A stretch of 33,898 nt of DNA from Magnetospira sp. (GTDB lineage: Bacteria; Pseudomonadota; Alphaproteobacteria; Rhodospirillales; Magnetospiraceae), in contig JANQIL010000132.1 of the NCBI GenBank assembly GCA_028282245.1, positions 1 through 33,898 on the forward strand. Reading direction: 5' to 3'. Below the pieces are notes generated by a model that made no database searches, had not been told where the DNA came from, and saw only the letters and a program-made list of their open reading frames with translations. The translations under genes were made by a program, and so were the position numbers. Of the stretch, positions 28,826 through 33,664 are shown piece by piece; the stretch's first letter is position 1; each line of letters begins with the position of its first letter.

Positions 28826-30625
28826 TCAGCCGGCCGGCGCGGCGTCGTCGATCTGGAACTGCACCGCGTCGCCGTTGCGCCAGCGGTCGCGGCGCAAACG
28901 TCCGGCCACGTGCAGCACGGCGCCGCGATGGTTGAGCAGCGTCTGGCCGAGCGCGTCGTCGACGCTGCGAAACGCGATGCCCTGGACGCGTCCTCCCTCC
29001 GCCGCCCCGGCGAGCGCACAGCGCACGTGGGCCTCGCCGACCACCGCCGACGAGGTGACGCGCACCCCGGTCAGCACGAACCTGGGCTCGGCGTTGCCGG
29101 CCCCGAACGGCGCCGCCCGCTGCACCGCCGCCAGGGTCGCCGCGTGGGCCGCCGCGGCCTTGAGGGCGCCATCGACCGACAGGTCGGGCACCAGGCCGGC
29201 ATCGGGCAGGCCGTGCTCCAGGCGTCCGGCCAGAAAATCGAGGAATTCGTCGATCCGTTGCGCGGCGACGGTAAACCCGGCCGCCATGGCGTGGCCGCCG
29301 CCCTTGATCAGAAGATCGGACTGGTGGGCCGCGATCACCGCCGCGCCGAGGTCGAGACCGGGCAGCGAGCGTCCGGAGCCGACCGCCGTCGCGCCGTCGC
29401 GGGCCAGCACGCAGGCCGGCCGGTTGTAGCGCTCGGCCAGCCGGCTGGCCACGATGCCGACCACTCCGGGGTGCCAGCCGTCGCCGACCGCCGCCACCAG
29501 GGCCGGCCGCAGACATCGCTCGGAATCGGACTCGACGACGTCGATGGCCTGTTCGAGAACGCGTGCCTCCAGGGCCTGGCGCTCGCCGTTGCAGGCGTCG
29601 AGCCGGCGCGCCAGTTCCGCCGCTTCGTCCGGGTCGTCGCAGGCCAGCAGGCGCGCCCCCAGATCGGACTCGCCGACCCGTCCGCCGGCATTGACGCGCG
29701 GCCCGAGCAGGAACCCGGCGTGATAGGTGCCGGGCGGTTCGCGCACCCCGGCCACGTCGGCCAGCGCCGCGAGCCCGGGATTGGTCCGCCGCGCCATCAC
29801 CTTGAGTCCCTGCGCGACCAGGGCGCGGTTGAGACCGACCAGCGGCACCACGTCGCACACCGTTCCGAGGGCCACCAGGTCGAGCAACCGCATCAGGTCC
29901 GGCTCGCGGCGCTCGCCGGTGAACCAGCCGGCCGCGCGCAGCCGCCGGTTGACCGCCACCACGCACAGGAAGGTGACCCCGACCGCCGCCAAGTGCCCCA
30001 GGCCACGGTCCTCGTCCAGGCGGTTCGGATTGACCACCGCGATCGCCGGCGGCAGGCGGGAGTCCGCCTCGTGATGGTCGAGCACCACCACGTCGAGACC
30101 GGCCTCGGCGGCGGCCGCCAGGGCGTCGTGGGCGGTGGCGCCACAGTCCACGGTGACCGTCAGGCGCACCCCGTCGGCGGCCAACCGCCGTAGCGCCGGG
30201 CCGTTGGGTCCGTAGCCCTCGGTCAGGCGGTCGGGGACGTAGAGACGGGGCGGCGGGGCGCCGACGGCGTTCAGGAAGCGGCCGAGCAGGGCGGTCGAGG
30301 TGGCGCCATCCACGTCGTAGTCGCCGAACACCGCGATCCGCTCGCCGTCGACGATGGCCCGTTCGAGCCGCGCGGCGGCGGCGTCCATGTCGCGCAGGCG
30401 CGACGGATCCGGCATCAGATGACGCAGGGTGGGATTGAGGAAATGGGGGGCCTCGTCGAGGCCGATCCCGCGCGCCGCCAGGACCCGCCCGGCCAGTTCG
30501 GGCAGGTCGTGACGCTGGGCCAGGGCCAGGGCGATCCGGTCGTCGGCCTCACGCAGCCGCCAGCGCTTGCCGCGCAACGACCGTTCGACGCCGAGGAAGG
30601 CCGGTCGGGTCGGGCCGCCGTCCAC
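28826..30625 (-). CDS. recJ: Single-stranded-DNA-specific exonuclease RecJ
   Basis: A 5'-3' exonuclease for recombination and mismatch/base-excision repair. The 599 residues carry the DHH-phosphoesterase motifs FGDYDVDGATSTALL (about 100-114), VLDHHEADSRLPPA, AVVNPNRL and LDLVALGTVCDVVPL, followed by DHHA1 with GWHPGVVGIVASRLAERYNRP and GGGHAMAAGFTV, and an OB-like C-terminal domain. Length matches the family. It starts with GTG three bases after the glpX stop, so it is the last gene of the hom-glpX-recJ operon. tRNA-Glu follows after a 60-base gap. Confidence 0.96.
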   Translation of the reverse strand: MDGGPTRPAFLGVERSLRGKRWRLREADDRIALALAQRHDLPELAGRVLAARGIGLDEAPHFLNPTLRHLMPDPSRLRDMDAAAARLERAIVDGERIAVFGDYDVDGATSTALLGRFLNAVGAPPPRLYVPDRLTEGYGPNGPALRRLAADGVRLTVTVDCGATAHDALAAAAEAGLDVVVLDHHEADSRLPPAIAVVNPNRLDEDRGLGHLAAVGVTFLCVVAVNRRLRAAGWFTGERREPDLMRLLDLVALGTVCDVVPLVGLNRALVAQGLKVMARRTNPGLAALADVAGVREPPGTYHAGFLLGPRVNAGGRVGESDLGARLLACDDPDEAAELARRLDACNGERQALEARVLEQAIDVVESDSERCLRPALVAAVGDGWHPGVVGIVASRLAERYNRPACVLARDGATAVGSGRSLPGLDLGAAVIAAHQSDLLIKGGGHAMAAGFTVAAQRIDEFLDFLAGRLEHGLPDAGLVPDLSVDGALKAAAAHAATLAAVQRAAPFGAGNAEPRFVLTGVRVTSSAVVGEAHVRCALAGAAEGGRVQGIAFRSVDDALGQTLLNHRGAVLHVAGRLRRDRWRNGDAVQFQIDDAAPAG

Positions 30626-30628
30626 CGA

Positions 30629-31621
30629 TCAGCCGCCGAGGATCAAGCGGCCGCCCGAGTCCAGGCGATGGCGGGATTCGATGTATCGCACGGTACCGGA
30701 CGACGAACGCATGACCAGGGAATGGGTGGTGGTCCACCTCGATCCCCGCTGCACGCCGCGCAGCAGGGCGCCCGGCGTCACTCCGGTGATCGCCACCATC
30801 ACGTCGCCGACCGCCATCTCGGAAAGGTGGTACGCGCGGTCCGGCTCGGCGATCCCGTGATCGATCGCGCGCCGCCGGTCGTCCGGGCCGCGCAGGTGGA
30901 GCCGGCCCTGCATCTGTCCTCCGACGCAGGACAGCGCAGCGGCCGCGAGCACGCCCTGCGGCGCTCCGCCGACCCCCATGAACACGTCGACTCCGCTTTG
31001 CGGGTCCATGGTCGCCAGGATGCCGCTCACGTCGCCGTCGGAGATCAGCGTGATTCGCGCCCCGGCGTCGCGCACCCGCTCGATAAGGTCGCCGTGGCGC
31101 GGCCGGTTGAGAATGCACACCAGCAGATCGCGCACCCGCACCCGCTTGGCCTCGGCCAGGGCGCGCAGGTTGTCTTCCGGCGTCGCGTCCAGATCGATCA
31201 CGCCGCTCGGCAGGTCCGGACCGACCGCGATCTTGTCCATGTATAGATCGGGCACCGACAGGAATCCGCCCCGGTCGGTCATCACCACCACCGACAGGGC
31301 GTTGGCGCCGCCGCGCGCGCAGGCGGTGATGCCCTCGAGCGGACTGAGCGCCACGTCAATCGCCGGCCCGGCGCCGGAGCCCACGGAATCGCCGGCGCAG
31401 AGCGCCACGCCGGGATGATCCCCGAACTCGCCGATCACCACCAGGCCGTCGAGGTCGATGCTATGGAGAGCGTCGCACATGGCGGCGGCGGCGGCCGCGT
31501 CGGCCGCCTGCTCGTCGCCGCGCCCCATCCAGTCGGCCGCCGCGAGGGCCGCGTTCTCGGTGATCCGGACCGCGTCGAGGGCGAAGTTCCGACCGCCGAA
31601 CAACGCCGCCATGCCGCTCAT
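30629..31621 (-). CDS. glpX: Class II fructose-1,6-bisphosphatase-like protein GlpX with altered metal site
   Basis: GlpX normally hydrolyses fructose-1,6-bisphosphate in gluconeogenesis and the Calvin cycle. The 330 residues keep the fold: AALAAADWMGRGDEQAAD, SLEGI-type loop, YMDKIAVGPDLPSG, RPRHGDLIERVRDAG, ISDGDVSG and GGQMQGRL. Compared with E. coli GlpX, metal ligands Asp33, Glu57 and Glu88 are kept (Asp41, Glu65, Glu96), but Asp85 is Ser93 (LSPLEG for DPIEG) and Glu213 is Gln222 (GAPQGV for GAPEGV). The conserved DEAPM stretch is DHPGV. It may be inactive or changed in specificity. I chose the ATG at 31621 because GGGGAG lies seven bases upstream; an ATG at 31636 is in frame. It lies 19 bases after hom and three before recJ. 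Confidence 0.88.
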   Translation of the reverse strand: MSGMAALFGGRNFALDAVRITENAALAAADWMGRGDEQAADAAAAAAMCDALHSIDLDGLVVIGEFGDHPGVALCAGDSVGSGAGPAIDVALSPLEGITACARGGANALSVVVMTDRGGFLSVPDLYMDKIAVGPDLPSGVIDLDATPEDNLRALAEAKRVRVRDLLVCILNRPRHGDLIERVRDAGARITLISDGDVSGILATMDPQSGVDVFMGVGGAPQGVLAAAALSCVGGQMQGRLHLRGPDDRRRAIDHGIAEPDRAYHLSEMAVGDVMVAITGVTPGALLRGVQRGSRWTTTHSLVMRSSSGTVRYIESRHRLDSGGRLILGG

Positions 31622-31640
31622 CGTGCTACTCCCCATCGGT

Positions 31641-32930
31641 TCAGAAGGACTCCATCCTTATCATATAGGGCGGCTCGACGACGCTGTCCTGCCGTCCGAT
31701 CGCGTCCAATGCCGCGACGACCGAGGCCTCGCGGGTTTCGTGCAGGGTCATCACGAGGGGTACCGGCTCGTTGGGCGCGCGACCGCGCTGCAACACCGAT
31801 TCCATCGACACCTCGTGGGCGCCCAGCGCCGCCGCGATGTCGGCGAACACGCCCGGCCGGTCGACCACCGACAGCCGCGCGTAATAGGCCCCCACGTGCT
31901 CGGCCATCGGCCGGGTTGGCAGCCGGGCGAGGTCGCGGGACGGAATCCCGAACGTCGGCGGGCGCGGGCCGCGCGCGATGTCGGCGATATCGGCGACCAC
32001 CGCCGAAGCGGTCGGCCTCTCGCCGGCGCCGCGTCCCACGTGCATGGTGGTATCCACGAAATCGCCGTGCGCGACCACCGCGTTGAAGACCCCCTCGACG
32101 GCGGCGATCGGGGTGTCGCGGGCCACCATGCAGGGATGCACCCGCTGCTCAATCCCGCCCTCGGTGCGGCTGGCGACACCCAGAAGCTTGATGCGGTAGC
32201 CCAGTTCGTCGGCGAACCCGATGTCGAGCGCGCTGACCCGGCGGATGCCTTCCACGTGCACGGCCGGGAAGTCGATCTCGCATCCGAACGCCACGCTGGC
32301 CAGGATGGCCAGCTTGTGCGCGGTGTCGATGCCGTCAACGTCGAAGCCGGGATCGGCCTCCGCGTAGCCGAGATCCTGGGCCTCGCGCAGCACCTCGGCG
32401 AATTCGCGACCGGTCTCGCGCATGGCGGTCAGGATGTAGTTGCAGGTTCCGTTGAGGATCCCGTAGACGCGGGAATAATTGTTGCCGGCCATGCCCTCTC
32501 GGATCGCCTTGACGATCGGGATGCCGCCGGCCACCGCCGCCTCGAACGCCAGCACCACTCCGTGCGCCTCGGCCAACCGCGCCAGTTCGGCGCCGTGGTG
32601 GGCGATCAGGGCCTTGTTGGCGGTCACCACGTGACGGCCGCGCCGCAGGCTCTCGGCGACCAGGTCGCGGGACACGCCCTCGGCGCCACCGATCAGTTCG
32701 ACCGTCACGTCCAGATCCTCGTCGAGCAGCGCCATGGCGTCGCCGTGCCAGGCGATGCCGTCCATCGGCAGGCCGGGGACGCGGTTGTTCGACCGCTCGG
32801 CGACCGCCGCGAGGGTCACCGGGCGCCCGCAGCGGGCGGCGAGGAGATCGGCGTTTTCGAGCAGCAGACGCACCGTCCCGCCGCCGACCGTTCCCAGACC
32901 GGCGATCCCTACGCGCAAGTCCTTGCTCAT
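31641..32930 (-). CDS. hom: Homoserine dehydrogenase
   Basis: Reduces aspartate semialdehyde to homoserine, the branch point to threonine and methionine. The 429 residues show an NAD(P)-binding N-terminus (RVGIAGLGTVGGG), VVTANKALIAHHG, FEAAVAGGIPIVKAIREG, the signature GILNGTCNYILTAM, the catalytic-lysine helix DTAHKLAILASVAFG, and a C-terminal ACT domain (RLSVVDRPGVFADIAAALG) that usually binds threonine as feedback inhibitor. ATG at 32930 has GGGAG seven bases upstream. It heads hom-glpX-recJ. A TTGACA lies at 33004-33009 on the same strand, with no convincing -10. Confidence 0.96.
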   Translation of the reverse strand: MSKDLRVGIAGLGTVGGGTVRLLLENADLLAARCGRPVTLAAVAERSNNRVPGLPMDGIAWHGDAMALLDEDLDVTVELIGGAEGVSRDLVAESLRRGRHVVTANKALIAHHGAELARLAEAHGVVLAFEAAVAGGIPIVKAIREGMAGNNYSRVYGILNGTCNYILTAMRETGREFAEVLREAQDLGYAEADPGFDVDGIDTAHKLAILASVAFGCEIDFPAVHVEGIRRVSALDIGFADELGYRIKLLGVASRTEGGIEQRVHPCMVARDTPIAAVEGVFNAVVAHGDFVDTTMHVGRGAGERPTASAVVADIADIARGPRPPTFGIPSRDLARLPTRPMAEHVGAYYARLSVVDRPGVFADIAAALGAHEVSMESVLQRGRAPNEPVPLVMTLHETREASVVAALDAIGRQDSVVEPPYMIRMESF

Positions 32931-33310
32931 GAAAATACTCCCTCGATCGAGTCGGATTGGTTGCCTGTTCTCCATCCCATGCTTCGCCCATGCGACACGT
33001 GGGTGTCAACCGTCGCCTCGCCGCCGCCATGCCCGGGCGACCCTCGCGGCGGTGGAACGGCGGCGCGCAAACTTATCGTGGACCAACGGAACGTCTTCCG
33101 CGTAGAATGCCGGCGCCAGGGCGCGAGGTCCCCTGGCCCCGAAATCTCAGGCACGCCCGGGTGGAGCCCGGCCATTACGTCGGAGGCTTGATCTCCCGGT
33201 CGTTCCGACGGCTCCACCACGGCTGCGCGAGAGATTTTGGGCTTGTTCCCTCGTCCCTGGGTCTCTCTCCACAAAAAAAGCGAGGGATATGACAGGATGA
33301 GGACGATCTC
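32931..33310. other. 380-base intergenic region between hom and the Gly/Tyr-rich gene
   Basis: No gene is supported; open frames here are shadows of uncertain composition. On the minus strand TTGACA at 33004-33009 could be a -35 for hom, but the -10 is poor. On the plus side TCCCTCG (33247-33253) and CGAGGGA (33281-33287) form a seven-base inverted repeat across a 27-base loop containing AAAAAAA, shortly before the ribosome-binding site of the next gene. It could be a leader hairpin, operator or attenuator. Confidence 0.4.
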
Positions 33311-33664
33311 ATGAAAAAGATTCTGATGGTTTCCGCGGTTGCCCTGGCGGTCGGTGGAATGGCCGGTGACGCCCAAGCCTGGGGTTGGGGTCCGTGGGGT
33401 GGCGGCGGTCCGTGGAACGGACTCGGCGACGGCTCCGGCGATTTCAACATGAACTTCAGCGGTCGCGGCTCGGGCTACGGCCACGGCAGCCCGTACGGCT
33501 ATGGCCCCTACGGTTACGGTGGTCCCTATGGGTACGGCGGCCCCTATGGCGGCTATGGCCCCTACGGTTACGGTGCTCCCTATGGGTACGGCGCCCCTTA
33601 CGGTCACGGCGTGCCTTATGGGTACGGCGCTCCGGTCGCCCCGGCGGCGGCCCCGCAGCAGTAG
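33311..33664 (+). CDS. Secreted Gly/Tyr-rich protein resembling sulfur globule proteins
   Basis: A 117-residue exported protein. A signal peptide (MKKILMVSAVALAVGGMAG, cleavage likely after AQA) is followed by WGWGPWGGGGPWNG and GDFNMNFSGRGSGYGHG, a core much like the sulfur globule proteins of purple sulfur bacteria (GPWN, DFNMN, SGRG and GYG blocks). The rest is a tandem array of PYGYG units, then a proline/alanine tail. Sulfur globule proteins coat periplasmic sulfur deposits. GAGG lies eight bases before the ATG. No sulfur-oxidation genes are in the window, and Gly/Tyr-rich envelope proteins of other function exist, so the role is tentative. Confidence 0.7.
   Translation: MKKILMVSAVALAVGGMAGDAQAWGWGPWGGGGPWNGLGDGSGDFNMNFSGRGSGYGHGSPYGYGPYGYGGPYGYGGPYGGYGPYGYGAPYGYGAPYGHGVPYGYGAPVAPAAAPQQ
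33491..33631 (+). repeat. Tandem 18-base repeat encoding PYGYG units
   Basis: About eight units of CC(C/T)TA(C/T)GGxTACGG(T/C)... code for PYGYGG/PYGYGA/PYGHGV. Units 2-4 and 5-7 form a 54-base higher-order copy, with units 2 and 5 and units 3 and 6 differing by only one base, so the array probably grew by duplication. Confidence 0.8.

Follow-up and report, generated by a model that had tools for sequence, protein, structure and literature searches.

GlpX proteins (PF03320, TIGR00330), as known from E. coli, M. tuberculosis, F. tularensis and Brucella, are class II fructose-1,6-bisphosphatases (FBPases). Their DPxE motif forms a single high-affinity metal site, an Arg-Pro-Arg stretch the phosphate-6 pocket and an Asp-Gly-Asp stretch the furanose contacts, and a threonine (Thr90 in E. 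coli, Thr89 in F. tularensis) is the proposed nucleophile (PMC10289334). The T89A mutant of F. tularensis and the equivalent T84A of M. tuberculosis are completely inactive, and E. coli D61A is essentially so; the threonine contributes no significant substrate affinity, and a change of the Thr90-to-Ser type leaves other GlpX proteins partly active (PMC10289334). The M. tuberculosis T84A protein was crystallised with F6P bound, and the class is proposed to act as a 222 homotetramer (PMC5892879). The GlpX of B. abortus is an active FBPase, which shows that genuine enzymes occur among alphaproteobacterial GlpX proteins (PMC11005471).

The window analysed here, a stretch of 33,898 nucleotides from Magnetospira sp., encodes a GlpX that shares the fold, length, phosphate-6 and furanose pocket and Tyr119 of these canonical enzymes, and its operon position is that of alphaproteobacterial GlpX. 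In contrast, Asp85, Thr90, Glu213 and the DEAP loop of canonical GlpX are lost, and the protein is predicted to be inactive. The nucleophile is likewise absent from M. tuberculosis T84A (PDB 6ayv), in which catalysis is gone and F6P is still bound in the crystal. T84A is a laboratory mutant, whereas the window gene, itself under selection, lost the residue naturally and metal ligands along with it; the mutant with F6P is a direct precedent for a GlpX that is dead but binding. On balance, the window gene probably encodes a catalytically dead GlpX kept as a sugar-phosphate-binding, non-catalytic and probably regulatory protein. We did not find this pattern described in the literature searched, which included few subscription papers.

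The glpX-like gene and its operon

The glpX-like gene (30629..31621, minus strand; PF03320, TIGR00330) encodes 330 aa with a class II FBPase fold and without the catalytic residues. The longest ORF extends from 30629 to 31636 (minus strand, 335 aa). We prefer the ATG at 31621 (MSGMAALFGG..., 330 aa) over a start at 31636, because GGGGAG lies 7 nt upstream of it and the congener G001 has the same MSGMAALFGGRNF start. The upstream operon partner is hom, for homoserine dehydrogenase (31641..32975, minus strand; NF004976, 522.8 bits), and the downstream partner is recJ, for the single-strand exonuclease (28826..30625, minus strand; TIGR00644, 513.5 bits). The spacing is tight, with about 19 nt from the hom stop to the glpX start and a recJ GTG start 3 nt beyond the glpX stop. 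By descent the protein is a member of the family: it has the GlpX fold and scores 387.6 bits with PF03320 over its full length (cut-off 27) and 285 bits with the NCBIfam equivalog TIGR00330 (cut-off 259.3).

Active-site residues

Sites are numbered as in E. coli K-12 GlpX, and the ten catalytic-site residues are those of PMC5892879. The window GlpX has kept Asp33, Glu57, Glu88, Tyr119, Arg166 and Asp188, and has Ser for Asp85, Ile for Thr90, Arg for Lys164 and Gln for Glu213. In detail (all on the minus strand), the Ser codon AGT at 31343..31345 removes an M1 metal ligand (PMC5892879, PMC10289334), and the Ile codon ATC at 31328..31330 removes the proposed nucleophile, at the position where T89A and T84A are inactive (PMC10289334). 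A further metal ligand is lost through the Gln codon CAG at 30956..30958. Glu57 (31427..31429) is retained, and in the loop directly after it EGEIDEAP has become EFGDHPGV (GEFGDHPGVAL in the window, GEGEIDEAPML in E. coli), with His at the position of Asp61. The active-site Tyr119 (31241..31243) aligns with that of E. coli. The Arg-Pro-Arg of the phosphate-6 pocket (residues 164-166, 31097..31105) is kept here and in all relatives checked, as is, in the window, the Asp-Gly-Asp that contacts the furanose hydroxyls (residues 186-188, 31031..31039; PMC10289334). Arg at position 164 is also found in the M. tuberculosis enzyme.

An earlier note on this DNA had claimed D85S, E213Q and replacement of the DEAP stretch after the conserved Glu57. 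The codons and the alignment to E. coli bear this out, but its count of catalytic losses was incomplete, as T90I, the most telling of the three, and the change of Asp61 to His were missed. What a functional FBPase has at the M1 ligands (Asp85, Glu213) and at position 90 (Thr or Ser) is absent from the window GlpX; the R/K-P-R of the phosphate-6 pocket and the DGD are present. The metal site and the nucleophile are therefore gone and the sugar and phosphate-6 pocket is retained. Judging from the published mutants, the protein should be unable to hydrolyse fructose-1,6-bisphosphate; very probably it no longer has any FBPase activity.

Degenerate GlpX across the order

We first searched 100 relatives, read their loci and tabulated twelve sites; a second sample of 44 degenerate and 26 canonical genomes was then added from an order-wide search. 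The 93 degenerate genomes (49 from the first sample and 44 from the second) all belong to the order of the window. In the first sample, hom-linked GlpX is degenerate in 20 families, including that of the window, and canonical (the twelve sites read DEDDETYRRDDE) in families f20, f29 and f30 and part of f19. The congener G001 and G002, from the same family, both have Thr, Ile and Gln at positions 85, 90 and 213. With these two, and with related losses in 93 genomes across the order, the changes in the window are neither chance nor sequencing error. The related changes in G001 and G002, together with the low dN/dS given below, rule out sequencing error or decay.

Among the 93 degenerate proteins, Asp85 is kept in 7, Thr90 in 5 and Glu213 in 35, with Gln in all 58 others. 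The earlier note asked whether Ser and Gln define a conserved subclade; they do not, as Ser85 occurs in just 3 of the 93 and Gln213 recurs in 58. Several degenerate proteins have a shortened 54-70 loop, and the 57-65 loop is altered or shortened in many lineages. Arg164, Arg166 and Asp188 are each kept in 93/93, Asp33 in 92/93, Tyr119 in 91/93 and Glu57 in 71/93. At least two of Asp85, Thr90 and Glu213 are lost in 88 of the 93, the window protein among them, and one is lost in the other 5, at least one of these by T90 to Ser. That these proteins are still active FBPases, with other side chains or water completing the metal site, would accord with those 5, since the change to Ser is partly active elsewhere. 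Given the 88 with two or more losses, the two GlpX enzymes killed by a T-to-A change alone and the invariance of canonical relatives at these sites, it is very unlikely.

Glu88 belongs to the M1 metal motif and is the same in all 93 degenerate proteins, despite the losses of its co-ligands Asp85 and Glu213. With M1 lost, this invariance and the persistence of Asp33 and of Glu57 (71/93) mean that metal or an altered chemistry may remain. The protein could then be a neofunctionalised enzyme, in line with the new substrate that the earlier note allowed for, that uses F6P, FBP or a related sugar phosphate in a different reaction through Glu88, Asp33 and the second metal site. Glu88 (93/93) and Asp33 (92/93) are conserved beyond what a mere scaffold would require, and the pocket is intact. 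However, lineages differ freely at positions 85 and 90, the alignment of the degenerate set revealed no acid, base or nucleophile that is newly conserved, and the 57-65 loop is changed or shortened as described. We consider such an enzyme unlikely, and favor a non-catalytic protein that has kept its sugar-phosphate pocket.

The 80 named hom-linked relatives, from Azospirillum, Inquilinus, Reyranella, Thalassospira, Acetobacteraceae and others, are canonical without exception, although they are those with the highest similarity to the query and degenerate sequences could be under-represented among them. Of 20 loci outside the order, mainly the lowest scorers picked from a class-wide search, 19 keep Asp85, Thr90 and Glu213 and the remaining one has T90A only. 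By these counts, alphaproteobacterial GlpX is not degenerate as a rule, and the degeneration is, from the sequences compared, derived and centred on the order of the window.

The degenerate set includes genomes G195, G155, G141 and G188, which we take to be R. rubrum ATCC 11170, M. magneticum AMB-1, M. gryphiswaldense MSR-1 and P. photometricum DSM 122, respectively. The hom-linked GlpX of all four is without Asp85 and Thr90, and those of the first three score above the NCBIfam cut-off for the class II fructose-bisphosphatase equivalog. As all scored degenerate GlpX proteins pass this cut-off, automatic annotation and metabolic models would assign them an FBPase activity that is probably absent. 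One degenerate glpX, that of G051 (L207:7226-8382), is in two pieces; this frameshift is either real decay or an assembly error.

Fold and selection

The AlphaFold2 model of the window GlpX has a pLDDT of 89.6 and a pTM of 0.87; its input alignment comprised canonical relatives only, and it supports the fold and says nothing on the altered active site. The top Foldseek matches are FBPase II structures, the T84A mutant included, with TM scores of 0.87-0.91 to 7js3 and 6ayv. A weak match is SuhB of the inositol monophosphatase family (6tqn, rrn antitermination complex), which has a loosely similar phosphatase fold. SuhB differs from GlpX in family and has a known antitermination role in a non-metabolic complex; it keeps its catalytic residues.

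We calculated dN/dS by the Nei-Gojobori method for the same genome pairs in glpX, hom and recJ. Values for degenerate glpX are 0.02-0.41, the 0.41 coming from a pair with very low divergence; hom and recJ gave similar values, 0.03-0.21 and 0.06-0.24, respectively. For the pair that includes the window, the values are 0.27 (glpX), 0.20 (hom) and 0.24 (recJ). The window GlpX thus combines the features of a pseudoenzyme, namely lost catalytic residues, a kept fold and purifying selection, and there is good support for its being retained by selection for a function at the protein level. The earlier note had described the rest of the fold and the operon position as intact, and the predicted fold and the tight hom-glpX-recJ operon agree. 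Its statement that this is not random decay is right. Its reading of the protein as a possible pseudoenzyme is well supported by the loss of three catalytic residues, together with that of the metal-ordered loop, from an intact fold, by the purifying selection and the invariant pocket, and by the recurrence of this loss in the first sample, where 20 families show it.

Other F6P/FBP enzymes

Reports of PPi-phosphofructokinase (PPi-PFK) activity in Rhodospirillaceae go back decades. In the genome of the window we identified a PPi-PFK (C66:21766-22977; NF010675, 486.5 bits, cut-off 273) with the motif GGNDS and PKTIDND, in which the Asp marking PPi use was assigned according to PMC11609450. The same genome has a class I Fbp (on C158) and a second GlpX, paralog B (G000:C102:9349-10260), near a gene read as class II fba; the second glpX or fbp that the earlier note had proposed to look for is therefore found in both forms. 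Paralog B has kept Asp85, Glu88, Thr90 and Glu213 and carries E57G and D61V. With these three proteins encoded, the hom-linked GlpX is not needed as an FBPase.

PPi-PFK and/or class I Fbp were found in 47 of 49 degenerate and 8 of 23 canonical genomes of the first sample (Fisher 4e-8), and in 40 of 44 and 3 of 26, respectively, of the second (Fisher 2e-11), in tests that leave relatedness in. For both samples together, the counts are 87/93 and 11/49. Six degenerate genomes have neither enzyme. Three of them (G067, G184 and G187) have a single T90A or T90S and a canonical paralog B, and the others (G063, G119 and G123) are drafts. On hom+recJ trees the state of GlpX changed 8-9 times by parsimony. 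Independent pairs numbered 2.3 for the same and 0.1 for the opposite direction, which, with few supported pairs, is not a significant association independent of ancestry. We infer that FBPase chemistry may have been lost repeatedly once a reversible PPi-PFK and/or class I Fbp could form F6P from FBP.

Several genomes (G031, G063, G099 and similar) have no PFK-A match; glycolysis probably proceeds by another route there, or the gene is absent from the draft.

The hom-recJ slot

Families without a hom-linked GlpX mostly have hom right next to recJ, so glpX is not a required spacer, and its role is dispensable in the several lineages without it. In G003 a methyltransferase-domain gene (L333:194-1458) occupies the slot instead of glpX. 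Within this one order, the slot is thus seen in three states, which we read from the genes as active, dead but kept, and deleted. The very tight gene spacing and the old operon order would suit a passive relic that only couples the expression of hom and recJ. Against this, direct hom-recJ junctions are tolerated in several families, the amino acids are under purifying selection and the pocket residues Arg164, Arg166 and Asp188 are invariant (93/93), which makes a mere relic extremely unlikely.

A PPi-PFK gene lies past recJ, convergent and ~3-3.7 kb from glpX, in 17 genomes of 7 families, and in several genomes of family f27 a class I fbp takes its place just past recJ (L212, L213). At loci that have no glpX, recJ may still be faced by PPi-PFK, and the short distance between PPi-PFK and glpX is therefore in part an inherited feature. 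This persistence weakens the linkage of glpX and PPi-PFK as proof of function.

The neighborhood also bears on a possible heteromer, in which the pseudo-GlpX would assemble with an active paralog B, class I Fbp or PPi-PFK and tune its partner. The 222 homotetramer proposed for the class (PMC5892879) is compatible with this, all three candidates are in the genome of the window, and fbp (in f27) and PPi-PFK (~3 kb from glpX in the 17 genomes) lie close by. However, paralog B and Fbp are both missing from many degenerate genomes. No single partner therefore suits all of them, with the possible exception of PPi-PFK, and that enzyme is missing from f17 and part of f27 and stays next to recJ without glpX. 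A regulatory subunit of this kind, also raised in the earlier note, is compatible with the data but doubtful.

Possible role of the retained protein

A dead GlpX kept for its sugar-phosphate pocket would still bind F6P or FBP and act as a ligand-gated non-catalytic protein; such binding is likely from the conservation of the pocket. Its likeliest role would be regulation of a partner at the F6P/FBP node, a best guess to which we give about even chances. PPi-PFK is one candidate, and as the target of pseudo-GlpX it is speculative and rather improbable. Also tentative and rather improbable is an order-wide, repeated conversion of FBPase II to an F6P/FBP-binding regulatory pseudoenzyme that would control F6P-FBP flux, for example through the reversible PPi-PFK, which many members encode next to this operon. 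The pattern resembles a repeated turn from enzyme to pseudoenzyme in central carbon metabolism. With the canonical, dead and deleted states at one slot, both the succession of events and what the kept protein does can be tested directly in bacteria amenable to genetics.

Paralog B is not hom-linked and is 31-40% identical to the window protein, with the same PF03320 fold. Unlike the window protein, it keeps Asp85, Glu88, Thr90 and Glu213, and Glu57/Asp61 or Asp186 is changed in many copies. Across the copies at G000:C102:9349-10260 and L076-L104, it is altered in several families at Asp33, Glu57 or Asp61 (Asp33 is lost in f15 and f22, and E57G occurs in the genome of the window). These altered copies keep Asp85, Glu88, Glu213 and mostly Thr90, a second and different erosion of the same family.

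Elsewhere in the window, a small ORF at 33311-33664 (plus strand) has a signal-peptide-like start and Gly/Tyr-rich PYGYG repeats, which we take to be reminiscent of sulfur globule proteins.
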